A stretch of 64,000 nt of DNA from NCBI GenBank assembly GCA_001899635.1, contig MKVQ01000015.1:83223-147222 (forward strand), given 5' to 3'. Below are positions 2,852 through 14,868 of this stretch, piece by piece. The position numbers were made by a program, and so were the translations under genes. Numbering within the stretch: position 1 is the stretch's first letter; each line of letters begins with the position of its first letter. The notes under the pieces were generated by a model. It was given only the letters and a program-made list of their open reading frames with translations. It ran no database searches and was not told where the DNA came from. This DNA comes from Myxococcales bacterium 68-20. GTDB lineage: Bacteria > Myxococcota_A > Polyangia > Polyangiales > Polyangiaceae.

Positions 2852-3217
2852 TCAGCTGCCGGAGAGCTTCGTCAGCGCGTGTGCGCAGGGGCAGCTCGCC
2901 GAGGATTCGCACTGCTTCTGCTTCTCCTCGATGCAGGCGTCGACGCACGACCTCTGCGATGAGTCCGCCGACGTGACGGACGTGGTGCCGGACCGCGGCT
3001 GGCTGCGGCTGCCCTGGGGCGTGGGCGATGTCTGCGCGACGCCGCAGGTGCTGCTGCACTGCTCGTGGAGCTTCTGGTCCTGGGCCGCGCAGCCCGCGTC
3101 GGTGAGCTCCTCGTCGAGCGACGTGCTCGACCGTGCGCCACACGCGACGAGGCCGAGGAGGACGGTGGCCAGCGCGACGAGGAGGGGCAGGAGCTGCACG
3201 TACGCGCGAGGCATCAT
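2852..3217 (-). CDS. Cys-rich lipoprotein, unknown function
   Basis: A predicted lipoprotein of about 121 residues. The start chosen, MMPRAYVQLLPLL, gives a normal signal peptide ending in the lipobox LVAC; an in-frame ATG 24 bases upstream would add MVVREASS and is less typical. The mature part has paired cysteines in short spacings (DAGC, HEQCSSTC, RSCVDACIEEKQKQCESSASCPC), which suggests disulfide bonding outside the cytoplasm. Small lipoproteins of this style are common in Myxococcota. No enzymatic domain is recognised. Function is not inferred. Confidence 0.7.
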   Translation of the reverse strand: MMPRAYVQLLPLLVALATVLLGLVACGARSSTSLDEELTDAGCAAQDQKLHEQCSSTCGVAQTSPTPQGSRSQPRSGTTSVTSADSSQRSCVDACIEEKQKQCESSASCPCAHALTKLSGS

Positions 3218-3360
3218 CGAGCTCGCTTCGCGGACGACCATGGACGGGTGTTAAGGCCCGCGCGGGGGGCTGCCAACGTGGCCGGCCGGCGCTGCGAAGG
3301 CCGGCGCCAACGCGATGACGGACGGCGCGACAAGATGGGGCGGGTCGTTTAGAAACGATC

Positions 3361-4248
3361 GTGATGGTGCGGCGGAGCTCGGTCCTCGGCGTTGCGGCGG
3401 CGATCGCGATCGCCATGATGGTGCCGCCTGGTACGGCGAGCGCGCAGGAGCCCGTCGCGAGCCCGGCGCCTCCGTCCGGTTCCGCGCCGCTCGACACGGT
3501 CTTCCTTCGCAACGGCGGCATGTATCGAGGGGTCGTGACGGAGATCGTTCCCGGCGATCACGTCACGCTCGCCGTCTCGGGCGGCGAGACGAAGGTGGTG
3601 CCCTGGGCGGACGTGGATCGGATCGTCGCGACGACGGAAGCGCCGGCGTCCATCCCGCCGAGCCCGAGCTCGCCGGTGCCACCGGTTGCCCCCGTCGCCC
3701 CGGCGACGCCACCGGGCCTCGACGTGCCGCCGCCTTCCCCGGCAGAAGCGCCGCCGCGAACGCAGTGGCGCGCGAACCGGCCGCTCCTCGTCACGGGCTC
3801 GATCCTGTTCGCGGCGGGATACGGGCCGAATGTGGTCGCCGCCGCGCCGAGCACGGTTGGCCTGGTGGGGAGGGTGGCGCTGCTCTTGGTGACGCTCGGC
3901 CTGCCGTGCTGGTTCGGCGGCAGCGGCTACATCTGCAAGGGACAGCACGGCGCCGTGCAGCTCCTCATCCCGTTCGCTGGGCCCTTTCTGTTCGCCAGCG
4001 ATCACCCGCGCGACACGGTCATTCACGCATCGGGAACGCCGCTCTCGGGCACCGCCAAGGGCCTTCTCTATGCGAGCGCCGGCCTCCAGATCGCCGGGGT
4101 CGCGACGATCCTCACCGGCGTCATCCTCGGCCGTCACGAGCGTGTGGAGCCCGAGTCGAAGGAGTCGTCGTCAAAGCCGTCGTTCTACATGGCGCCGCTC
4201 GACGCGCCGGGCGCGGTCGGCATTTCGGTCGGCGCCTCACGCTGGTGA
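3361..4248 (+). CDS. Secreted/membrane protein with N-terminal beta domain and C-terminal hydrophobic segments
   Basis: A 295-residue protein with a signal peptide ending near TASAQE. Residues 40-85 form a short beta-rich module (DTVFLRNGGMYRGVVTEI ... VPWADVDRIV) of a kind often seen in Myxococcota, resembling small beta-barrel folds. A Pro-rich linker (about 90-135) follows, then three or four hydrophobic segments (near RPLLVTGSILF, VALLLVTLGLP, VQLLIPFAGPF and LQIAGVATILTGVIL). GTG ATG GTG run together at the start, so the exact first codon is uncertain by one or two residues. Probably an inner-membrane protein with a periplasmic N-terminus. Function unknown. Confidence 0.7.
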   Translation: MMVRRSSVLGVAAAIAIAMMVPPGTASAQEPVASPAPPSGSAPLDTVFLRNGGMYRGVVTEIVPGDHVTLAVSGGETKVVPWADVDRIVATTEAPASIPPSPSSPVPPVAPVAPATPPGLDVPPPSPAEAPPRTQWRANRPLLVTGSILFAAGYGPNVVAAAPSTVGLVGRVALLLVTLGLPCWFGGSGYICKGQHGAVQLLIPFAGPFLFASDHPRDTVIHASGTPLSGTAKGLLYASAGLQIAGVATILTGVILGRHERVEPESKESSSKPSFYMAPLDAPGAVGISVGASRW

Positions 4249-4305
4249 GGCGAGCCCCAAATTGGCGTCCCGGAATCGTGAACGCCGACTACCATCGCGC
4301 CACCG

Positions 4306-4914
4306 ATGCAGTTCGCGGACCCGCGCTCCACGGCCACGGCCTACCTGATCCTGCGTCATCTCTACGACGGCGACATCATCGAGTGGCCGATCCCCGACGA
4401 TCATCCGCAGCGCGAGATCTTCGCGCAGCTCGAGGCGCAAGGCTACGTCGCCCGCTGGGATCGCGTGTGGCCGCTCCACGATCGCTATCGCCTCACCGAG
4501 CGGGGGATCGCCGCGATCGAGTCGGTCTACCGACCCGCCGGGGCCGAGGCGTTCTTCGAGGACCTGCGCCGGCGGAACCTCTCGCCGCAGGATCGACGGA
4601 TGTTCCTCCAGCAGCACGGCCTCAACCCGGCGCTCTGGCCGCTGCTCCACGATCCCTCGACCCACTGGAGCACGTTCCACGAAGTCGGCGCGCGCTACCA
4701 CTCGTACGTCTGGGAGGACATGCAGCCGCCGAAGCGGGTGCGGCCGACGAAGCTGAAGCGCGGAGGTGGTGGAGGCGCGAGACCGGTGCATCACCACCAC
4801 CACCACGACCACGACTACGATCAACGTCGAGCCGCGCACCTGCTCGATCTCGACCGCGAGGCCAACGATCCGGGGCACACCGCGCCGGGGACGTTCGACT
4901 ACGACGTGTCGTGA
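4306..4914 (+). CDS. Winged-helix-like protein with a natural poly-His tail
   Basis: A 202-residue cytoplasmic protein of unknown family. Residues 1-70 look like a winged-helix fold, with a helix-rich start and a wing-like RYRLTERGIAAIE. The middle is helical (FFEDLRRRNLSPQDRRMFLQQHG). The C-terminal third is unusual: a Lys/Arg/Gly-rich stretch leads into HHHHHHDHDYD at about residues 162-172, encoded by a run of cac/cat codons. Such tracts can bind Ni, Zn or Cu. The stop overlaps by one base the start of the first glycosyltransferase gene, so it is probably the first cistron of the downstream run. It could be a regulator or metal-responsive accessory of that pathway. Function inferred only from context. 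Confidence 0.7.
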   Translation: MQFADPRSTATAYLILRHLYDGDIIEWPIPDDHPQREIFAQLEAQGYVARWDRVWPLHDRYRLTERGIAAIESVYRPAGAEAFFEDLRRRNLSPQDRRMFLQQHGLNPALWPLLHDPSTHWSTFHEVGARYHSYVWEDMQPPKRVRPTKLKRGGGGGARPVHHHHHHDHDYDQRRAAHLLDLDREANDPGHTAPGTFDYDVS

Positions 4915-6017
4915 TGGCCGCGTCGCGTGCGCTGCGGGCGCTCCTCGTCGCGAACGACGGCTTCTCTGCCGGTCACGTCGCACGGACAGTTGCGGTGGCG
5001 CGAGCCCTCACGCGGCGATCGCGTGCGCGAGGGATCTCGGTCCAGCTTCTCCTCGCGACGACGTCGGAGGCTCATCCGCTCCTCGACGACGAGAGCTTCG
5101 CCGTCGTGCGCCTGCCGGCGCCCGTCGCCGCGCGGCGAGCGGGTTTCGCCGACGCCGAGCGTCGCCGTCTCGTGCGCGGAGCCCTCGCAGGCGCCTGCGA
5201 GGCGTTTGGTCCGGATCTCGTCGTGGCGGACACGTTCCCGTCGGGCCCACATGGCGAGCTCGCCGGTGTCGGATTGGGCCACGCGAAGCGAGCGCTCGTA
5301 CGCCGCTCGGTGCCGGTAGCCCGCGCCGAGGACGATGTGCTCGCGGCAGGGCTCCGCGATCACGACGTCGCGATCGTGACGGATGATCCAGGCCCGATCG
5401 ACGTGTCTCTCCCGATCCGGACGGTCCGCGTGCCGCCGATCACGCTCGGAGAGGCGGCGGACGCGCTCTCCCGCGACGAGGCTCGCACCGCGCTCGGGCT
5501 GCCGGCGGAGGGCAGGGCCGTGCTCGTCGCGGCCGGCGGCGGTGGTGACGCGGAGGCGGCGGCGCGTGCGACCGCGCTCGCGGAGGCCGCCCTTCGGCTC
5601 GCGCCCGATCTCGTCGTCGTGCGCGCGGTCGGCCCGCTCGAGCGCGCCGGGAAGGTGGACGCAGGACAGCGGCCATTGCACGTACGCGTTGCGCCGCTCC
5701 AGCCGCTGCTCGCGGCATTCGACGGCGCATTCTCGCCAGCGGGCTACAACACCGCGCACGAGCTCGCCAAGGCCGGCGTGCCGGCGGCGCTCTTCGCGCA
5801 GCCGAGGTCGTTCGACGATCAGGCCGCGCGCGCCTCGCGCTTCGCGGAGCGAGGGCTCGCGTTCGCGCTCGACCGTTTCGAAGACGCGGCGCTGTCCGCC
5901 GCGCTCGAGTGGATGGCGACCGCTCCTCGGCCCTCGCTCGAGGCCGGGGGCGCCGATCGCGCCGCCGACGTGCTGCTCGATCTCGTGATGCGCAAGGCGG
6001 AGGGCGGCGCTCGATGA
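4914..6017 (+). CDS. GT28/MurG-type glycosyltransferase
   Basis: A 367-residue GT-B fold glycosyltransferase, expected to move a sugar from a nucleotide-sugar to an acceptor. The ATG at 4914 was chosen because it overlaps the previous stop and starts directly at the first Rossmann strand (LRALLVANDGFSAGHVART), which carries the GxxxGHxxR-type loop of MurG/MJ1255-like enzymes. The C-terminal half has the donor-site pattern SPAGYNTAHELAKAGVPAAL followed by DDQAARASRFAERG. It is clearly paralogous to the N-terminal third of the next protein. Translationally coupled on both sides (TGATG upstream, ATGA downstream). Acceptor and sugar cannot be read from the sequence. Confidence 0.8.
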   Translation: MAASRALRALLVANDGFSAGHVARTVAVARALTRRSRARGISVQLLLATTSEAHPLLDDESFAVVRLPAPVAARRAGFADAERRRLVRGALAGACEAFGPDLVVADTFPSGPHGELAGVGLGHAKRALVRRSVPVARAEDDVLAAGLRDHDVAIVTDDPGPIDVSLPIRTVRVPPITLGEAADALSRDEARTALGLPAEGRAVLVAAGGGGDAEAAARATALAEAALRLAPDLVVVRAVGPLERAGKVDAGQRPLHVRVAPLQPLLAAFDGAFSPAGYNTAHELAKAGVPAALFAQPRSFDDQAARASRFAERGLAFALDRFEDAALSAALEWMATAPRPSLEAGGADRAADVLLDLVMRKAEGGAR

Positions 6018-9000
6018 AGGTCGCCTTCCACACCATCAACGGCGTCGGCCTCGGGCATGTCGTCCGCGCGGTGAGCCTCGCGACCGAGATGCGCGCGCTC
6101 GTCCCCGGTGTGAAGCTGCTCGTGCTCACGAACGCGCGCGACACCTCGCGGATCGCGGAGGCCGGGCTCGACTTCGTCAAGCTCCCGCCTCGGCTCTCGG
6201 AGCCGCACGCCGATCCCGGGCGCGCGCTGACCGCGTTGCCGGAGCCGTTCGAGGAGGCTGCGCTGGTGGCGGCTCTCGAGACGTTCCGGCCCGATCTCGT
6301 CGTGTTCGACACGCATGCGCCGATGCGCGTCGCGCGGCAGGTCGCGGCGATCGGCGCACGCGCCGTGCTCGTCCTTCGCGAGCTCCGTCCCGAGGCGCTC
6401 CGGTCCTTCGTGGCCAGCGCGGCGCCGCTCGCGTTCGATCGGATCGTCGTGCCGCACGCGCCGGGTGACATGGACCTCGCGCCGCTCGACGGTCTGCCGG
6501 TCGTGCTCGCGGGCCCGATCGTGCGACCGATCCGTGGGGACGCGCCGGCGCCGTCCAGCGGGGCGCCGCGGGTCGTCGCGACGGCGGGCGGGGGAGGTCA
6601 GCCGGTCGACGCCCGCCGCTACCTCCGCGCCGTCGCGGACGCGCATCTGCTCGCGCGTGCGCGCGTCCCCGAGCTCGAGACGGTTCTCGTCACCGGACCG
6701 TATGGAGAGCCGCCGTCGAACCTGGAGCGGTACCCCGGGCTGACCGTCGTGCGATCGACGGCGGATCTCGACGCGCTCCTCGCGCGCGCCACGCTCGTCG
6801 TATCGCAGGCCGGTTACAACGCGATCGCCGAGATCCGCGCGCTCGAGAAGCCGGCCGTGCTCGTCCCCGGCCATCGCAAAGCGGAGGACCAGCGCGCCCG
6901 CGCCCTCCGCCTCGCGCGCGCAGGGGCGGCGGTCATCGCGAAGCCCGAAGCGCGTTCGATCGCCGATGCCGTCGAGGCGATCCTAGGCTCGGGCGACAGG
7001 CTCGCGGCGATGACGCGCGCTCATCGCACGATCCCCCTCGTCGCGAGGAACCGGGAGGCCGCCGCGGCGGTGCTCCGCCCGGTGTGGCGACCGCCGATGA
7101 AGAATGCGATGGCGAAGGTCGCGATCGTCGCGCACGACTTTGCGCCGAAGCTCGGCGGAATGGAGACCGTTGCCCGCTCGCTTGCGGCATGCCTGCTCGC
7201 GCGCGGAGTCGGCGTCCGCGTCTACACGACGAACCGTCTCGGCGCGCGATCGGCGAGCGGTCTCGGCGAGGACGTGGTCGTGCCGCTGTACCAGCCGCGG
7301 CCTCCCCCTGCGCGGATCGATCTGGAGGACGACCTCCTCGCGACGATCGACGCCGCGCTCCGTGACTCGGCCGACGTGATCCATCTCTGCCACGCGGGGC
7401 TCGGTCCGTGGGTCCCCGCGCTTCGCGCTGCGCTTCCGTGCATCGTGACGGTGAACGTCCACGGCAACGATCTGCTCGCCCCGTGGGTGTTCCACGACGG
7501 GACGCCCGACGCGTATCGGACCGCGCAGATCGAGGGCCTGTCGTCGGCGGACGCGGTCCTGGCGGTGTCGCGCTTCTCGCAGGACCTTGCGCGTGGGAGG
7601 GGCGTCGCGCCCGGCGTGCTGCACACGATCGAGAACGGCGTCGACCCTACGCGCTTCTGCCCCGGCGCGCGCGACGCGACGCTCGCGCGCCGGTTCGGCA
7701 TCGAGGACGAAGACGAGGTCGTCCTGACCGTCTCCCGGCTGGCGCCGCGGAAGGGGCACCGGACGGCGCTCGAGGCGATCGCGCTTCTCGCGAAGAAGCG
7801 GCCTCGCCTCAAATTCGTCTTCACGGGTGCAAGCGACGCGATGCGCACGGAGCTCGCGCAGATCGCCGACGGTCTCGGGATCGGAGCGCGTATCGTCGCG
7901 ACCGGGTTCGTTCCGGACGCGGAGCTCCCCGCGCTCTATCGGCTGGCGAACGTGTTCGCGCTCCTCGCGAGCGAAGCCGACGACGACGTCGAGGGCTTCG
8001 GCGTCGCGCTCGTCGAGGCAGCGGCGAGCGGGGTGCCGGCCGTCGCCTCGCGGACGGGCGGCGTACCGGAGGCGCTCGTCGACGGCGAGACCGGCCTCCT
8101 CGTCACGGCGGGCGATGCCGTCTCGGCCGCTCGTGCGATCGAGCGACTGCTCGAGGACCGCGCGCTCGCCCGCACGCTCGGCGCTCGCGGCCGCGAGCGT
8201 GTCCTCACCGAGCTCTCCCACGAGCGTGCTGCCGATCGCGTCCTCGGGATCTGGAGCGCGCTCCTCGAGCGCGGAGCACGGACGCCGGTCGATCGCTCGC
8301 CGGCATGGCCCGGCTCGTCGGCGTTCGTACCGGCGGAGAACGGGGTACTGCTCACGCGGCGCGCGCAGGAGCGCGGCGCAGCGCGACGCGCGGCTCGAGC
8401 GGCGCGGAGGCAGTCGCTCCACGCGGTCGTCGAGCGCGGTCAGCTCGTACGCCTGCGCGCCACCGGCGCCGGCGCGAGGCTCCTGCCGGACGCGCTCGAG
8501 GACTGCGCAGCGGAAGGACACGCCCCGCGTGTCGAGGTGAAGCTGCGCCGCTTCGTGGAGGCTGACTTCGCTGCCTACGCGCTGCCGCTGCTCGAGGGCG
8601 TCGAGCTCGTCCACGGCGTCCCGCATCCCGGCGCCCGCGCACTCCTCGACGCCGTGCGCGCGATGCCCGAGGAGGCGCTCCGTCGCGTCCGGCTCGTGCG
8701 GCTCTTCCTCACGCCGGAAGCGCGTGAGGCGCCGTCGCTCGCGCTCGAGGCGGTCCCCGAGACGCATGCGCTCCGCCGCTTCTTCGCCGAGCGCGGCGCC
8801 GTCGTGGTGCCGCCTCCGGAGCTCATGCGCTACCTCTCGGAGCTGCCTGCCGGCGGCCCCGAGACGGCGATGGTGGAGCCGACGAACCTCTGTAACCTCG
8901 CGTGCCCGACGTGCCCCACCGGTACGGGCAAGATCAAGCCGCTGCCGCAAATGACGCTCGACCGCTTCGACCACGTCCTCGGCGAGCTCGCCCCGCGCAT

Positions 9001-9760
9001 GCGGAACCTCGCGCTCTGGAACTACGGCGAGCCGCTCCTCAACAAGGAGCTCCCCGCGATGATCGCGCACGCGAAGGAAGCGGGCGTGCGCGTGGTGAAG
9101 GTGTCGTCGAACGTCCACTTCCTCGACGGCGAGCGCGGCCTCGCCCTGCTGCGCTCCGGGCTCGACGTCCTCATCCTCAGCGTCGACGGTGCGAGCGCGG
9201 AGACCTACGCGACGTTCCGCAAGGATGGCGACTTCGAGCGCGTCGCGGGGTCGGTCGCCTGGCTCTGCGCCGAGAAGAAGAGGCTCGGTCTCGACAAGCC
9301 GCGGATCGAGCTCCAGTTCATCGTGATGCGTCACAACGAGCACGAGCTGCCGGAGATGCGTCGCCTCGCGCGCGAGTGGGGGGTCGATCGGCTGCGCGTG
9401 AAGACGGTGGGCGCCGACGACGCCACGACGAAGGATCTCGTCCCCGCCGAGCGGCTCCTCTCTCGATACAAGGCGGACGGCGAGACGCCCAACGTCCGTC
9501 ATGCGTTCTGCACGATGGCCTGGGACCACACGGTCGTGAACGTCGACGGCTCGGTCACGCCGTGCTGCTATCTCCGTCCCGACATGGGCGATGCGTTCGT
9601 GATGGGCAATGTCTTCCAGGCCTCGTTCCCCGAGATCTGGCGCGGCGAACGCTACCGCGCGTTCCGTGCGGCGATGCTCGCCGGACGGGAGTCGATGCCG
9701 GTGTGCGATCGCTGCCGTGGCGGCACCCACGATCTCATCGCGTCCGTGGAGGCTCCGTGA
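6014..9760 (+). CDS. Trimodular protein: GT28-like glycosyltransferase - GT4 glycosyltransferase - radical SAM/SPASM enzyme
   Basis: One uninterrupted frame of 1,248 residues. Residues 1-361 are a GT28/MurG-like glycosyltransferase (GLGHVVRAVS loop; SQAGYNAIAEI donor motif). Residues 362 to about 757 are a GT4 glycosyltransferase with HDFAPKLGGMETV at its start, VSRLAPRKGH and the EX7E motif (E660 to E668, in EGFGVALVE). Residues about 760-945 are an uncharacterised alpha/beta linker. The rest is a radical SAM domain with Cys960, Cys964 and Cys967 (CNLACPTC) for the 4Fe-4S cluster, and a C-terminal SPASM-like Cys set (SVTPCCY, CDRC). An internal ATG at 7097 sits exactly at the first domain boundary, so independent translation of the GT4 part is possible. 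Coupled by ATGA to the gene before and GTGA to the gene after. A missed stop or frameshift cannot be excluded. Confidence 0.8.
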   Translation: MKVAFHTINGVGLGHVVRAVSLATEMRALVPGVKLLVLTNARDTSRIAEAGLDFVKLPPRLSEPHADPGRALTALPEPFEEAALVAALETFRPDLVVFDTHAPMRVARQVAAIGARAVLVLRELRPEALRSFVASAAPLAFDRIVVPHAPGDMDLAPLDGLPVVLAGPIVRPIRGDAPAPSSGAPRVVATAGGGGQPVDARRYLRAVADAHLLARARVPELETVLVTGPYGEPPSNLERYPGLTVVRSTADLDALLARATLVVSQAGYNAIAEIRALEKPAVLVPGHRKAEDQRARALRLARAGAAVIAKPEARSIADAVEAILGSGDRLAAMTRAHRTIPLVARNREAAAAVLRPVWRPPMKNAMAKVAIVAHDFAPKLGGMETVARSLAACLLARGVGVRVYTTNRLGARSASGLGEDVVVPLYQPRPPPARIDLEDDLLATIDAALRDSADVIHLCHAGLGPWVPALRAALPCIVTVNVHGNDLLAPWVFHDGTPDAYRTAQIEGLSSADAVLAVSRFSQDLARGRGVAPGVLHTIENGVDPTRFCPGARDATLARRFGIEDEDEVVLTVSRLAPRKGHRTALEAIALLAKKRPRLKFVFTGASDAMRTELAQIADGLGIGARIVATGFVPDAELPALYRLANVFALLASEADDDVEGFGVALVEAAASGVPAVASRTGGVPEALVDGETGLLVTAGDAVSAARAIERLLEDRALARTLGARGRERVLTELSHERAADRVLGIWSALLERGARTPVDRSPAWPGSSAFVPAENGVLLTRRAQERGAARRAARAARRQSLHAVVERGQLVRLRATGAGARLLPDALEDCAAEGHAPRVEVKLRRFVEADFAAYALPLLEGVELVHGVPHPGARALLDAVRAMPEEALRRVRLVRLFLTPEAREAPSLALEAVPETHALRRFFAERGAVVVPPPELMRYLSELPAGGPETAMVEPTNLCNLACPTCPTGTGKIKPLPQMTLDRFDHVLGELAPRMRNLALWNYGEPLLNKELPAMIAHAKEAGVRVVKVSSNVHFLDGERGLALLRSGLDVLILSVDGASAETYATFRKDGDFERVAGSVAWLCAEKKRLGLDKPRIELQFIVMRHNEHELPEMRRLAREWGVDRLRVKTVGADDATTKDLVPAERLLSRYKADGETPNVRHAFCTMAWDHTVVNVDGSVTPCCYLRPDMGDAFVMGNVFQASFPEIWRGERYRAFRAAMLAGRESMPVCDRCRGGTHDLIASVEAP

Positions 9761-11148
9761 ACCGCAGCGTCTCGCATGGCGAGGACGCCCTCCGTCACGA
9801 GCGCGTCGCGCTCTTCGAGGATGGGACACCCGACGCGCCCGGTGAGGCGCTCGCTGCGTATCGCCGAGCGGCCAGCGCGCTCGGGGAGGGGACGACGCTC
9901 GCGTGGCATGTCGACCCCGGCAACCTCGGTCTCCTGTCACGGGCGATGCGCGAGCTAGCCGCGCAACGCCTCGACGTGGTGCTCCGCGCCGACGACGTCG
10001 CGGAGGACCGCACCGAGGTCGCGAGCGAGTCCGCGCTCGTGCCCACGCTCCGCCGCCTGCGCGAGCAGCCGCCGGCGAGCTCGATCCCGCGGCGGGACGT
10101 CCGGCTCGTGATGACCAACGGCCGGCCGTACGTCCTGCCGCCACCTGCGCTCGACATCTCGACGAACGATCTGTGCGGGCTCGAGTGCAACATGTGCGGT
10201 AACCGCGCGACGCGTCGCGATCCGCACACGATCTCGTCCGCGGACGTCCAGCGGCTCATCGCCGAGGCGGCCGCCTGGGGCATCCGCCGCGTCGCGCTCA
10301 CCGGCGCGGGCGAGCCGTTCCGCGATCCGAACATGCTCGATCACATCCGCCATGCGAACGAGCTCGAGCACCTCGTCACGATCACGACCAACGGCTTCCC
10401 GATCTCCGACAAGATCGCGACCGAGCTCGCGGAGCGCGTCGCATCGGTCTCCGTGTCGATCCACGGCGCCGCCGACGAAACCCACGACGCCATCGTCGGC
10501 GTGCCGAAGGCCGGGGAGAACGCATGGCGCGCGATCCGTCGCATGGTGCGCGCACGCGATGCGCGCCCGGGCTCGAAGCTGAGCGTCAACGTCTCCACCG
10601 TCATCCAGCGCAAGAACGTCGGCGAGATCCCCGCGCTCGTCCGCCGCGCGCGCGACGAGGGCGTCTCGGGGATCAACATCCAGCCGGTGAACCTCCAGCA
10701 CGGCTCCTTCCGCGGAGACGGCATCGTTCGGCGCGACGATCTCGTGGCGATGTCGCGCCTCTGGCCTACCCGCGAGCAGGAGGCGGCGCTCGACGCGACG
10801 TTCGACGAGCTCGCGAAGCTGAAGGGAGAGCTCGGTAAGGTGATGCACGCGTCGCTGGAGCGTCTCGCGCTCGTCCGGCGCTACTTCCGCGACTCGTCGC
10901 GGGAAGCGCTCGGAGTCGCGTGCCGCGTCGGCGAGGCGTTCCTGGCCGTGGATCACCGTGGACAGATCAAGCCGTGCTACCGCTTGCCGTGGTCGCACGG
11001 AGACGCGCGTCTCGTCGACGTCCGAGCGCTCTGGAACAGCAAGGCGTATGCGCGCACGCGCGCCCAGGTCGACGCGTGCCCGCTCACCTGCCTGAACAAC
11101 TGTTTCTTCCGCGAGCGGCGCGCCCGCGCCGAGGAGGCCGTCTCGTGA
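9757..11148 (+). CDS. Radical SAM/SPASM enzyme
   Basis: A 463-residue radical SAM protein. The GTG at 9757 overlaps the previous stop (GTGA), giving an N-terminal domain of about 130 residues before the cluster motif. Cys140, Cys144 and Cys147 (CGLECNMC) bind the 4Fe-4S cluster that cleaves S-adenosylmethionine; TGAGEPF and VSVSIHGA fit the core barrel. The C-terminus carries a SPASM-like set (ACRVGEAFLAV, IKPCYRLPW, DACPLTCLNNC) that would hold auxiliary clusters. Such enzymes modify peptides or sugars and other small molecules. Lying between glycosyltransferases and unknown proteins, it most likely works on the same product as the radical SAM module just upstream. Substrate unknown. Confidence 0.88.
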   Translation: MNRSVSHGEDALRHERVALFEDGTPDAPGEALAAYRRAASALGEGTTLAWHVDPGNLGLLSRAMRELAAQRLDVVLRADDVAEDRTEVASESALVPTLRRLREQPPASSIPRRDVRLVMTNGRPYVLPPPALDISTNDLCGLECNMCGNRATRRDPHTISSADVQRLIAEAAAWGIRRVALTGAGEPFRDPNMLDHIRHANELEHLVTITTNGFPISDKIATELAERVASVSVSIHGAADETHDAIVGVPKAGENAWRAIRRMVRARDARPGSKLSVNVSTVIQRKNVGEIPALVRRARDEGVSGINIQPVNLQHGSFRGDGIVRRDDLVAMSRLWPTREQEAALDATFDELAKLKGELGKVMHASLERLALVRRYFRDSSREALGVACRVGEAFLAVDHRGQIKPCYRLPWSHGDARLVDVRALWNSKAYARTRAQVDACPLTCLNNCFFRERRARAEEAVS

Positions 11149-11648
11149 GCGCGCGCATTGTCGCGACGCCGCTGGAGGCCGAGATCACGGTCGCGGTCGC
11201 CGATCGCGATCTGTCCGCGGCGATGACGGAGGCGATCGCGAGGGCGCTCCGCGAGGCGACGGCGGCGTGCTCGGCGCCCGCCCCCCGCGTGGTGCGCCTC
11301 CGGACGCGAAAGCGCTTCGCGCGCCTCGGGGCCGAGCGGATCGCCGGCGCCATTGTCGTTGTCGCCGTGACGGCGTCGAATGCCCGGCGGCTCCTCGAGC
11401 TGGTCGAGGCCGTGCGCGGGGCGGGGGCGAGCGGCGTCCAGCTCGTCTGGGACGGGACGACGCCGGCCCGAGACGACGTCGAGCGGCACGTCTTCGCCGT
11501 CCTCGAGCGCGCACGCGCGACGCCTGCCGGCCCGCCGGTGGTCCTCGCGAAGGATAGCGAGCCGGCGTTCTCTCTTCGTGCCCTCGTGACGCATCGAGCA
11601 CGACCGATCACCCCGAACGACGAGCCAAACGACGAGGAAGCGTCATGA
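11145..11648 (+). CDS. Unknown alpha/beta protein in the glycosyltransferase-radical SAM run
   Basis: A 167-residue protein, GTG start inside the preceding stop (GTGA) and its own stop inside the next ATGA. A central hydrophobic strand (GAIVVVAVTASNARRLLELVEAV), a second strand (SGVQLVWDG) and a third (PPVVLAKD) alternate with helices, as in a small Rossmann or half-barrel fold. The layout echoes the alpha/beta segment that precedes the cluster motif in both neighbouring radical SAM proteins, so it may be a detached partner domain. No signal peptide. No family recognised. Confidence 0.7.
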   Translation: MSARIVATPLEAEITVAVADRDLSAAMTEAIARALREATAACSAPAPRVVRLRTRKRFARLGAERIAGAIVVVAVTASNARRLLELVEAVRGAGASGVQLVWDGTTPARDDVERHVFAVLERARATPAGPPVVLAKDSEPAFSLRALVTHRARPITPNDEPNDEEAS

Positions 11649-13000
11649 ACTGCAGGCGTGCGGGCCTGGTACTTCGCGGTCTCGCGAGAAACGAGCTCGA
11701 TGTCGAGTCGGAGGAGATCGACGAGCTCCTCGCGCTCGGCCTCGCGCTCGAGGCGGATCCGGACGACCTCGCGATGGCGACCTGGCTCCAGGGTGTCGTG
11801 CAAGCCCACGCGCAAACGAGCATCGGCGATCCGAACGCGACGGCTGCGCTAGCGAGCACGCTCCGCGAGACGGAGGAGCGCCTGAAGAGCGACTGGTTCC
11901 GCATCAAGTCGAGCAAGGTGGAGATCGCCCAGAAGGAGGCGGATCGCGTCGCGATGCGGCGGGCGATTGCGCTCCTCAACGACGCGACCACGATGGTGCC
12001 GATCGCGAAGATCGTGAGCGAGGCGCAGAGCCTTGCTCCGGGAGCACGGTACTGCGCATGCGAGCGGCTCGGATCGGAGCGCTACGCGTTGACGCACAAG
12101 GGATGGCGTGTGCGTGCCCAGCTCGAGGCGCGCCTCGAGCGCTTCGCCGAGGTTCCGCTCCGATCGTTCCTTCGCACGTTCGACAAGGCGGAAGCGAAGA
12201 TGCTCGCCTTCAGCAAGGACATCGCGGCGCTGTCCGCAAACGTCTGGGTGCGGAAGAACCGGGAGCACATCGTCATCGGCCTCGCGAAGGTCGACGGGCC
12301 GCGCGAGCAGACGATCGACGCGTACAAGTCGGCGCTTCAAGCCACGAAAGAGGCGGACCTCGCCGTGGTCTGCGTGCGCAACGCGGCGATGTCCGGGGGC
12401 ATCCGAGAGGCCCAGAAGCGGCTCGAGCAGGCGCAGGCCGCCCTCGCTCGGGTTGGCTATCCGCGGACGCCCATCGTGATGGGCGCGGCAAAGTCGATTC
12501 TCGGCTTCGCGCTCGAGCCCGGCGTGCTTCGCTTCGTCGAGATCCATCGGCGGCTCGAGCAGGCGTTCGGCCGCGGTCAGGAGATCCTCTTCAAGTTCAC
12601 GTCGCGGCTGATGCCGGCGACGGGGACCCCGGCGGACATCGTCGGTCGCGTCGTCACTGCTGCGTCGAGCCTCGTCTACCAGTCGCCGGCCGGCGAGCGC
12701 GCCCACGCTCGCGACGTTCGTAGCGCTGCCGTGGCGCTCGCGTCGATGGTGAAGACCCAGGATGCGATCCCGCCGATCGTCGCGCGCTTCCGGCAGATCG
12801 AAGCGGAGCTCGTGCGCGCCGGCATCAGCGTGATGCACAACGTCGAGGCGGATGCGCTCGAGTGCGTTCGCTGTCCCGGCACACCTCAGGAGGTGGTCGC
12901 CACCGTCAGCGCGATCCTGACGCAGCTCGCCGCCGGCCGTCAGTCCGAGCGAGCGGACGTGGCGATCGCCGTCGCCTTCGCCAAGCGCTTCGCGTACTGA
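11645..13000 (+). CDS. Large helical protein of unknown function, last gene of the coupled run
   Basis: A 451-residue, almost wholly alpha-helical, soluble protein starting in the ATGA overlap. The first 120 residues are acidic helices. Residues about 135-165 hold a paired Cys (CACERLG) followed by SERYALTHKGWRVRAQLE, a wing-like motif resembling RYRLTERGIAAIE in the first gene of the run. The rest is helical with no membrane segment, plus a late CVRC pair. The last two-thirds could be a repeat or scaffold structure. No enzyme motif is seen. Coupling to the radical SAM genes suggests a role in the same process, but that is inference only. Confidence 0.72.
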   Translation: MNCRRAGLVLRGLARNELDVESEEIDELLALGLALEADPDDLAMATWLQGVVQAHAQTSIGDPNATAALASTLRETEERLKSDWFRIKSSKVEIAQKEADRVAMRRAIALLNDATTMVPIAKIVSEAQSLAPGARYCACERLGSERYALTHKGWRVRAQLEARLERFAEVPLRSFLRTFDKAEAKMLAFSKDIAALSANVWVRKNREHIVIGLAKVDGPREQTIDAYKSALQATKEADLAVVCVRNAAMSGGIREAQKRLEQAQAALARVGYPRTPIVMGAAKSILGFALEPGVLRFVEIHRRLEQAFGRGQEILFKFTSRLMPATGTPADIVGRVVTAASSLVYQSPAGERAHARDVRSAAVALASMVKTQDAIPPIVARFRQIEAELVRAGISVMHNVEADALECVRCPGTPQEVVATVSAILTQLAAGRQSERADVAIAVAFAKRFAY

Positions 13001-13020
13001 CTCTCCTCCGGCGTCTGGCG

Positions 13021-13440
13021 TCAGTGCCGGGTGATGTTGCCCTTGGAGTCGATCACCCACAGGCCTTCCTTGTCGATCGGGTCGTCCTCGAAGGTGTCGT
13101 TCTTGTTCGCGTTGGTCTTGTGGAGATCGTACTGACCGACGAGGAGCGAGCTGCGCTTTCGCTTGTACTGCTCCTCCCACGTGCGCGGCTTCACCCCGTC
13201 GGTGTCGACGAGAATGGTCGCGCCGTTGTCCATCACGTTGATCATGGGCACCGTCACTCCGTCGACGATCACGCGCTCGTACTTCCCGTCGGGGGGAGGC
13301 GAGCCAGCCGGCGCGGCCGGAGCCGTCGCACCGGTCGCTCCAGCGGACGTCGACGATCCGGCCGGAGCCTCCTCTTTGTCCTTCTTGCTGCACGAAAAAC
13401 AGAGGACTGCGGCGAGTGCGAGCATGGCGGAGCGCGTCAT
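13021..13440 (-). CDS. Small lipoprotein, unknown function
   Basis: A 139-residue predicted lipoprotein, MTRSAMLALAAVLCFSC, lipidated Cys17. A Ser/Gly/Ala/Pro linker (about 25-50) leads to a compact hydrophilic domain (YERVIVDGVTVPMINVMDNG ... WVIDSKGNIT). The start was chosen because an upstream in-frame ATG would put charged residues before the signal peptide. It is convergent with the end of the radical SAM run (20 bases apart) and divergent from the symporter gene. Function unknown. Confidence 0.75.
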   Translation of the reverse strand: MTRSAMLALAAVLCFSCSKKDKEEAPAGSSTSAGATGATAPAAPAGSPPPDGKYERVIVDGVTVPMINVMDNGATILVDTDGVKPRTWEEQYKRKRSSLLVGQYDLHKTNANKNDTFEDDPIDKEGLWVIDSKGNITRH

Positions 13441-13518
13441 GCCGGCGATGCTAGCGCGCTTCGCTGCGCGATCCATCGTCGCCCGATCCGCGGTTCGGCG
13501 ATTGCGTAGTATCGGCCG

Positions 13519-14868
13519 ATGGAGCTGACGCCCGAGAGCGCCGAGCGCATCACCGAGGGGGAGGAGCCCCCGAAGAAGCGGCGTGGTCCGAGCCTCTATG
13601 TCCAGGTCCTGATCGCGCTCGCGCTCAGCGTGCTCCTCGGCTGGCTCCGTCCCGAGTGGGGGATCGCGATGAAGCCGCTCGGCGACGGCTTCGTGAAGCT
13701 GATCAAGATGCTCATCGGTCCGATCGTCTTCATGACGGTCGCCGTCGGCATCGCCGGGATGAAGGATCTGAAGAGCGTCGGTCGCGTCGGCGGCAAGGCG
13801 ATCCTCTACTTCGAAGTGATGACGACGCTCGCGCTGCTCATCGGGCTCGCGATCGCGCACCTCGTGAAGCCCGGTGCCGGGATCCACGCCTCCGCGGAGG
13901 GCATGGACCCATCCATCGTCGACAAGGCCCTGTCGGGGCCGAGGCCGCACGGCGTCGCGGAGCACCTCCTCGCGCTCATCCCGAACACCTTCCTCGGCGC
14001 GTTCGTCGACGGCGACGTTCTCCAGATCCTCGTGCTCGCGGTGCTGCTCGGCGTTGCGCTCGCAGGGCTCGGCGAGCGGGCGGCGGGCGTCAGCACGCTC
14101 CTCGAGCAGTTCGCGACGGCCGTCTTCGCGATCGTCGGCATCGTGATGCGTGCAGCGCCGATCGGGGCCTTCGGCGCGATGGCGTTCACGATCGGGAAGT
14201 ACGGCATCGGTACGCTGGGGAGCCTCGCCAAGCTGATGGCGGCCTTCTATGCGACCGCGCTCCTCTTCGTGCTCGTGGTGCTCGGCGCCGTGATGCGGGC
14301 GATGGGGCTGTCGATCATCAAGCTCCTTCGGTATCTCCGTGAGGAGCTCGTGATCGTGCTCGGCACGTCGTCGTCGGAGTCGGCGTTGCCGCGGCTCATG
14401 GGGAAGCTCGAGCTGCTCGGATGTGCGCCGCCCGTGGTCCGTCTCGTGGTCCCGACGGGATACTCGTTCAACCTGGACGGGACCTCGATCTACCTCACGA
14501 TGGCCGCGCTCTTCGTCGCGCAGGCGCTCGACGTTCCACTGAGCCCGGGCGACGAGATCCGTCTCCTCCTCGTGCTCCTCCTCACGTCGAAGGGCGCCGC
14601 GGCGGTCACCGGGAGCGGCTTCGTCACGCTCGCGGCCACGCTCGCCTCGACGGGGAGCGTCCCGGTCGTCGGGATCACGCTCCTCCTCGGCGTCGATCGG
14701 TTCATGTCCGAGGCTCGAGCGCTCACCAACATCGTCGGCAACGCCGTTGCCACGATCGTCGTCGCGAAGTGGGAGAAGCAGCTCGACGTCGCGCGAGCAA
14801 AGCGGGTACTGGAGGGCGGTCGGCCCGATGCCATCGACGACTCGCCCCCCGAGGTCACGTCCGACTGA
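13519..14868 (+). CDS. Dicarboxylate/amino acid:cation symporter (DAACS family)
   Basis: A 449-residue inner-membrane transporter of the DctA/GltP/GltPh family, which takes up C4-dicarboxylates or acidic amino acids with Na+ or H+. Visible signatures include the hairpin GTSSSESALPRLMGKLE (family pattern GTSSSE.xLP), then PTGYSFNLDGTSIYLTMAALF, and the late MSEARALTNIVGNAVATIVVAKWE. The length and eight-helix pattern are normal. The N-terminal 25 residues are hydrophilic. No regulator is adjacent. Whether the substrate is malate/succinate or glutamate/aspartate cannot be decided, so no symbol is given. Confidence 0.93.
   Translation: MELTPESAERITEGEEPPKKRRGPSLYVQVLIALALSVLLGWLRPEWGIAMKPLGDGFVKLIKMLIGPIVFMTVAVGIAGMKDLKSVGRVGGKAILYFEVMTTLALLIGLAIAHLVKPGAGIHASAEGMDPSIVDKALSGPRPHGVAEHLLALIPNTFLGAFVDGDVLQILVLAVLLGVALAGLGERAAGVSTLLEQFATAVFAIVGIVMRAAPIGAFGAMAFTIGKYGIGTLGSLAKLMAAFYATALLFVLVVLGAVMRAMGLSIIKLLRYLREELVIVLGTSSSESALPRLMGKLELLGCAPPVVRLVVPTGYSFNLDGTSIYLTMAALFVAQALDVPLSPGDEIRLLLVLLLTSKGAAAVTGSGFVTLAATLASTGSVPVVGITLLLGVDRFMSEARALTNIVGNAVATIVVAKWEKQLDVARAKRVLEGGRPDAIDDSPPEVTSD

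Follow-up and report, generated by a model that had tools for sequence, protein, structure and literature searches.

A putative seven-gene cassette with a glycosyltransferase-glycosyltransferase-radical SAM fusion in Myxococcales bacterium 68-20 and a few related bacteria

Introduction

Among the radical S-adenosylmethionine (SAM) enzymes, two-cluster SPASM domains hold about seven cysteines for two auxiliary clusters. In a published account, a twitch domain is described as holding one auxiliary cluster, and BtrN as a twitch enzyme with a single four-cysteine auxiliary cluster which oxidises the cyclitol 2-deoxy-scyllo-inosamine (PMC9012708). The present study concerns a locus of Myxococcales bacterium 68-20 in which radical SAM enzymes are encoded side by side with glycosyltransferases. 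It is located in a stretch of 64,000 nucleotides of contig MKVQ01000015.1 (positions 83,223 to 147,222 of the forward strand, assembly GCA_001899635.1), hereafter called the window, and comprises six genes, A to F, at positions 4306 to 13000 of the window as well as a facing lipoprotein gene, L. These seven genes seem to represent one cassette that is gained or lost as one block in a few related bacteria.

Results

Gene organisation and co-occurrence

The genes A (4306 to 4914; 202 amino acids, aa), B (4914 to 6017; 367 aa), C (6014 to 9760; 1248 aa), D (9757 to 11148; 463 aa), E (11145 to 11648; 167 aa) and F (11645 to 13000; 451 aa) all lie on the forward strand and overlap, in this order, by 1, 4, 4, 4 and 4 bases, with start codons as inferred from the sequence. 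A preliminary description of the window had proposed a run of six coupled genes, probably with a single transcript and coupled translation, acting as one system, and its coordinates, frames and junctions were all reproduced. The extent given there is borne out for A to F, but the unit is larger: the lipoprotein gene L (13021 to 13440, reverse strand; 139 aa), which faces F across a gap of 20 bases, had been overlooked.

The six genes occur in the same order in five genomes, beyond what chance would give: the genome of the window, its congener G010, the metagenome-derived G098, and G289 and G290, which belong to one genus. The latter two are closely related, and the five carriers amount to about four independent observations at most. 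Across them, the preceding stop codon can be overlapped by an in-frame start codon at 23 of 25 junctions, namely at all five in the window, G010, G289 and G290 and at three of five in G098, where the junctions B/C and D/E are the exceptions. L is found on the opposite strand just past F in all five genomes and follows F directly in four. In G010, F and L are separated by a gene for a protein with a Tim44-like domain (locus L017, 13699 to 14994), which overlaps L by 4 bases; this gene was seen at L in G010 only, as if co-transcribed with L. A scan of positions 3200 to 13600 revealed no sigma-70-like promoter, with 0.3 expected in shuffled sequences, a result that is little informative in this organism.

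Matches to F were obtained in two of 58 near relatives and in six of 317 genomes of the class, i.e. in the five carriers and, at only 20 bits, in G316. The latter was rejected as a carrier, its 6.8-kb contig containing none of the six genes (blastp). Gene A was detected in the same five of the 317 genomes as the block, and L in exactly those five carrying A, with one copy each; the searches through the class took in A, F and L. Judged from these comparisons, L is part of the A-F unit. E, which was searched for in the 58 relatives only, matched strongly in the genome of the window (G000) and in G010. Three other genomes gave matches with expectation values between 2.5e-4 and 1e-3, and G000 contains one more place with a weak match. 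In eight chosen genomes, D reached 858 to 888 bits in the five carriers and 57 bits at the best other place. In a draw of 377 genomes of the phylum, A matched G000 and G010 plus one place in G500 at 22 bits, and D matched G000, G010 and G475 at an expectation value of 1e-30 or better; the other carriers, being absent from these matches, were probably outside the draw. A pattern-based scan for A in the GTDB species collection (84,980 species) returned only G010 and G098; it relied on two short peptide patterns, by which copies can be missed, and it may leave out the window's own genome. The preliminary description had named homologues that are scattered and never occur together as the observation speaking against a single system; among the genomes compared, they stand together.

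A locus of a second kind was noticed in the phylum: in G475, the locus L037 (8933 to 15750) contains two radical SAM/SPASM genes around a gene for a protein of 1112 aa, the start of which is GT4-like to the eye, yet has no match to a glycosyltransferase family. Outside the five blocks, no protein seen came closer to D than the first radical SAM protein of this locus, at 112 bits. Nothing resembling B, E, F or L was found there, and the match to A is at chance level only.

Inheritance of the block

Block-free relatives with retained flanks were found at two unrelated sites. In G030, a member of the genus of G289 and G290, both flanking genes of the G290 block are present and their alignable ends are about 60 bases apart, compared with about 9.2 kb in G290, and the stretch missing from G030 contains A to F and the lipoprotein gene. 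In G003, which belongs to the genus of the window, LeuS and the next gene as well as the gene at 13519 are kept around the block site, with a different gene between them. The start of this gene (locus L047, 5909 to 7060) is FHA-domain-like, by eye only. The window also differs from G003 by a gene at 3361 to 4248, which makes the border less sharp. This gene encodes 295 aa on the same strand as A, 57 bases upstream of it; it has no Pfam match over cut-off and, by tblastn, no homologue around the other four blocks or in the stretches of G003 and G005. The site in the window and G003 may be a spot of repeated gene exchange. Two other members of the genus, G005 and G011, are uninformative on the site, the gene right of the block being absent from the stretch fetched. 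In G290, the block is located at 2.15 Mb and LeuS at 4.74 Mb, so the block site there differs from that of the window.

The two pieces of LeuS are 77 and 74% identical to those of the window in G010, 69 and 66% in G290, and 56 and 52% in G098. For G010, G290 and G098, the corresponding values are 70, 71 and 75% for D, 60, 58 and 61% for B, 46, 48 and 53% for E, 47, 39 and 51% for F, and 63, 56 and 66% for L; C is 68% identical in G010 and 70 and 74% in the pieces of G098. Gene A is an exception (67, 64 and 58%). Most of the block thus departs from kinship, and horizontal transfer is therefore favoured; we consider it likely on the grounds of these pairwise identities. In the closest pair, G289 and G290, the ratio of nonsynonymous to synonymous substitution rates (dN/dS) was 0.05 for A, 0.16 for B, 0.12 for C, 0.15 for D, 0.34 for E, 0.24 for F and 0.17 for L. 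With ratios from 0.05 to 0.34, the seven genes are under purifying selection in this pair. More distant pairs show high synonymous divergence, with ratios up to 0.78, and were left out of the estimate.

No convincing terminal repeats of a mobile element were found at the edges of the G290 block, the only one searched. An origin from phages or plasmids was considered by way of F and D and dismissed: among 72,556 records of plasmids and 50,697 of phages, none matched F. D found a single match in plasmids (26%, Halobellus) and no relative in viral contigs.

Glycosyltransferase modules

Protein B resembles GT28/MurG-like glycosyltransferases, with Pfam matches below cut-off (Glyco_trans_4_4 with an expectation value of 3e-5; Glyco_tran_28_C with 0.16, at 12.4 bits versus a cut-off of 22), and is 58 to 61% identical in the four other genomes. 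Protein C is encoded by a single uninterrupted frame of 1248 codons and consists of a GT28-like module (approximately residues 1 to 360), a GT4 module (368 to 750), a linker (780 to 940) and a radical SAM part with a twitch-type domain (945 to 1246). It is fused alike in G010, G290 and G289, with 67 to 69% identity over its length, and the fusion is therefore no assembly accident. In G098, C (locus L025, 7540 to 11464) is split into two frames with a break around residues 171 to 192, and the start of E is displaced relative to the others; these may be real changes or errors of this metagenome-derived genome.

The GT28-like module of C exceeds the Pfam cut-off for Glyco_tran_28_C (45.5 bits versus 22) and stays below that of the N-terminal GT28 model (13.6 versus 26.2), and the GT4 module matches Glycos_transf_1 (130.9 versus 26.4) and Glyco_transf_4 (67.7 versus 28.5). 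The PDB matches of the GT4 module are sugar transferases throughout. BshA (5d00) is named in fifth place, and the first four entries, which bear general names, we take to be BshA and MshA entries. The window's B is 29% identical to the first module of C of G010, and the window's C is 27% identical to B of G010. The two GT28-like, one GT4 and two radical SAM modules claimed in the preliminary description are all present, but they are distributed over three polypeptides, with C as a triple fusion, and of the two GT28-like modules only that of C stands over the Pfam cut-off, whereas B belongs there by resemblance.

Radical SAM domains

The end of C exceeds the Pfam cut-offs for Radical_SAM (47.0 bits versus 29.5) and SPASM (62.8 bits). 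The same applies to D (55.1 and 25.1 bits), in which an N-terminal region without assignment precedes what appears to be a radical SAM/twitch-type enzyme. The cluster motifs are retained in both. In C, Cys 960, 964 and 967 of the CX3CX2C motif and the auxiliary Cys 1166, 1184, 1231 and 1234 are invariant in four genomes, and with Cys 1185 the auxiliary region has five conserved cysteines; in D, Cys 140, 144 and 147 and Cys 389, 407, 441, 445 and 449 are invariant in five. Despite the SPASM matches over cut-off, five auxiliary-region cysteines each fall short of a two-cluster SPASM domain, and by their cysteine sets C and D look like carriers of one-cluster, twitch-type domains. The earlier assignment as radical SAM/SPASM modules cannot be upheld in the two-cluster sense.

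The alignment of BtrN with the radical SAM part of C covers two stretches and places all seven cluster cysteines in register, and Cys 1166, 1184, 1231 and 1234 correspond, by alignment only, to Cys 169, 187, 232 and 235 of chain 4m7s_A. This match is weak (40 bits); next in the PDB comparison are BlsE, an archaeal lipid enzyme, PqqE and SkfB. The nearest PDB relative of the core of D is the cytosylglucuronate decarboxylase BlsE (expectation value 2e-10), followed by SkfB. The top NCBIfam radical SAM models are TIGR04311 and TIGR04317 for C and TIGR04317 for D; they describe maturases of metallo- or tungsten enzymes, and the scores are under three tenths of the cut-offs (110.8 of 400, 105.2 of 380 and 84.5 of 380). 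A defence system was also considered and rejected, since only viperin models matched C and D, via the radical SAM region.

Proteins A, E, F and L

Neither A nor E nor F has a match in Pfam or NCBIfam, which for E and F agrees with their earlier description as two uncharacterised proteins; E also lacks a convincing PDB match. For L, no Pfam match over cut-off and no PDB relative were obtained. Profile matches of A, E, F and L to the PDB were weak or meaningless, and the PHROGs collection yielded nothing for A and F and weak matches for E and L.

In a structure model of A, calculated from a three-sequence alignment, a winged helix is followed by helices and, from about residue 127, by a disordered tail; the block means of the predicted local distance difference test (pLDDT) are 60 to 91 up to residue 120 and below 50 from residue 127 on. 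The best structural neighbours are folds of the MarR/PadR type (Z 7.0 or less, 81 residues, rmsd 3.6), a middling level by the scale of the tool, and Foldseek gave no match at an expectation value of 0.001 or below. The model thus points to a winged-helix-like N-terminal domain (about residues 1 to 90). MarR/PadR types head the list of folds, which leaves room for other winged-helix kinds such as the RiPP (ribosomally synthesised and post-translationally modified peptide) recognition element. The middle of the tail is not alignable, and its end reads DYDVS or DYDIS in all five genomes, preceded by a DLD motif. The preliminary description had called A His-tailed. A run of six His is indeed present in the window but in no other carrier: the last 60 residues contain 5, 0, 5 and 5 scattered His in the other four genomes, and the conserved part is the extreme end DYD[VI]S.

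E is about 42 to 53% identical in the four other genomes. A relationship to radical SAM barrels was rejected, with profile comparison probabilities of 12% and 0.3%. The model of F is all-alpha with a mean pLDDT of 58 and block means of 59 to 92 for about residues 221 to 430; it has no PDB match at an expectation value of 0.001 or below and resembles only unspecific helical folds. The end of F, AFAKRFAY, is identical in the five genomes, while the whole protein is only 37 to 51% identical to that of the window. A relationship between A and F was likewise rejected (probability 0.3%). In L, a short signal peptide with a Cys, recognised by eye, is followed by a linker that varies in length; the C-terminal domain, about 90 residues long, is strongly conserved.

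A RiPP precursor beside the enzymes was sought among reading frames of at least 20 residues in about 460 to 510 bases on each side of the block in the five genomes. Matches were restricted to the sisters G289 and G290, apart from one in which two larger flanking genes match each other; frames inside A to F and in the F-L gap of G010 were outside this search. The absence of a short precursor peptide noted in the preliminary description therefore stands, in that none is common to unrelated carriers in the roughly 500 bases that flank the block on each side. This is in keeping with a sugar or small molecule as the likelier substrate.

Discussion

The cassette has three transferase modules as well as two radical SAM domains, that of C being joined to two of the transferases. 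A sugar pathway with radical tailoring is its best reading, and the fusion suggests that the transferases and the radical domain of C share one substrate. We propose the following substrate, order of steps and roles. In the cytoplasm, a short glycoside would be assembled on an acceptor by B and the GT28 and GT4 modules of C. Sugar carbons would then be oxidised or otherwise remodelled via H-atom abstraction by D and by the twitch-type radical SAM domain of C, comparable to the action of BtrN on a cyclitol. A could regulate the operon or dock on the enzymes via its tail, F might be a helical scaffold and E an accessory protein, and L may bind, carry or shield against the product at the envelope; for A, F and L, these roles are suggested by fold, place and co-inheritance. 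Taken jointly, a short glycoside that is built by the cassette, oxidised by radical chemistry and handled at the envelope by L is a tentative reading, to which we give slightly less than an even chance. In its favour are the sugar transferases among the PDB matches of the GT4 module, the alignments of C with BtrN and of C and D with the sugar-nucleoside decarboxylase BlsE, and the lack of a shared short precursor in the flanks; the unit itself is supported by the constant gene order, the joint occurrence of A and L, and the relatives that retain the flanks without the block.

Several observations weigh against this reading. The block is without sugar-nucleotide synthesis, polymerase, flippase and exporter, which leaves the acceptor and the export unexplained; among A to F (Pfam and NCBIfam) and L (Pfam only), no flippase, polymerase or ATP-binding cassette (ABC) exporter was matched. 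The similarity to BtrN amounts to only 40 bits, maturases of metallo- or tungsten enzymes come first among the NCBIfam radical SAM models, with scores far below their cut-offs, and the peptide-acting PqqE and SkfB also match C, SkfB in addition D. L is encoded on the opposite strand and hence outside the operon. Furthermore, the unusually conserved C-termini of A and F are not predicted by a plain sugar pathway. Together with the co-inherited lipoprotein they are the points least explained, and because of them a protein target retains a minor but appreciable share of our expectation.

The cassette would in this case modify one of its own proteins, i.e. the disordered tail of A, the C-terminus of F or L, with the radical SAM enzymes cross-linking or oxidising it and the transferases glycosylating it, somewhat like mycofactocin but on a large carrier protein. 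We regard this as unlikely, although the C-terminal residues of A are constant in five genomes behind an unalignable linker that is disordered in the model, the last residues of F are constant in spite of its low overall identity, and L, with its strongly conserved last 90 residues, is strictly co-inherited in 317 genomes. The conserved termini may equally be docking motifs, neither a peptidase nor a peptide exporter was matched in the block, and no RiPP recognition domain was identified. The one-cluster look of the radical SAM domains by cysteine count and the nearest relative of C, a sugar enzyme, likewise speak for another substrate, although a twitch domain is also reported for SkfB, which acts on a peptide (PMC6231123). 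A more specific form, in which C and D put an oxidised, glycosylated structure on a ribosomal carrier (the tail of A or L) that is recognised not through a short leader peptide but via a folded partner of the winged-helix or helical-repeat kind, is considered somewhat less probable still. Just as doubtful is an ordinary side cluster for surface polysaccharides, which would decorate lipopolysaccharide (LPS) or exopolysaccharide encoded elsewhere. Three glycosyltransferase modules without acceptor synthesis in the block are in line with this, and accessory polysaccharide clusters are often horizontally transferred; on the other hand, the block gave no match to an initiating transferase, flippase, polymerase or ligase, and to our knowledge four domain-less families and a dedicated lipoprotein are not usual in such clusters. 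A further reading, in which A represses the operon in the manner of MarR/PadR and the other genes form a system for cofactor or metalloenzyme maturation, appears very improbable: the highest-ranking NCBIfam radical SAM models of C are TIGR04311 and TIGR04317, that of D is TIGR04317, and the model of A has a winged-helix fold, but the scores stay below 0.3 of the curated cut-offs and the block is without a metalloenzyme gene.

In titles and beginnings of abstracts of the open-access literature, no paper on the cassette, the triple fusion or the four families was found. The locus provides a compact cassette, found at unrelated chromosomal sites, which combines a glycosyltransferase-glycosyltransferase-radical SAM fusion with four protein families, A, E, F and L, that lack a curated match in the libraries searched. 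Its seven genes have clear borders and can be moved as one piece, which makes a direct search for the product feasible. Should sugar transfer and radical oxidation be coupled on one substrate by the fusion, the cassette would exemplify a novel way of making oxidised glycosides; with a protein as the target, it would instead represent a novel type of protein modification system.

Compared with described systems, the end of C shares the CX3CX2C motif and four auxiliary cysteines with BtrN of the butirosin pathway, but is fused to two glycosyltransferase modules and only weakly similar (about 40 bits). BlsE is the best PDB relative of the radical SAM core of D and matches this core alone, whereas D has in addition some 130 aa on the N-terminal side and a C-terminal set of five cysteines. 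The GT4 module of C scores 106 bits with the MshA model and 79 bits with the BshA model of NCBIfam, against curated cut-offs that lie far higher, at 462.5 and 273.7, and the block is without a thiol-pathway partner. Mycofactocin and similar peptide clusters likewise bring together radical SAM enzymes and glycosyltransferases and have conserved protein C-termini; in contrast to them, no short precursor was found in the flanks of the block, and the mycofactocin radical SAM model reaches 45.3 and 56.1 versus a cut-off of 265. The enzymes of the cassette are nonetheless members of known superfamilies, and as a whole it is akin to biosynthetic clusters that combine radical SAM enzymes with glycosyltransferases.

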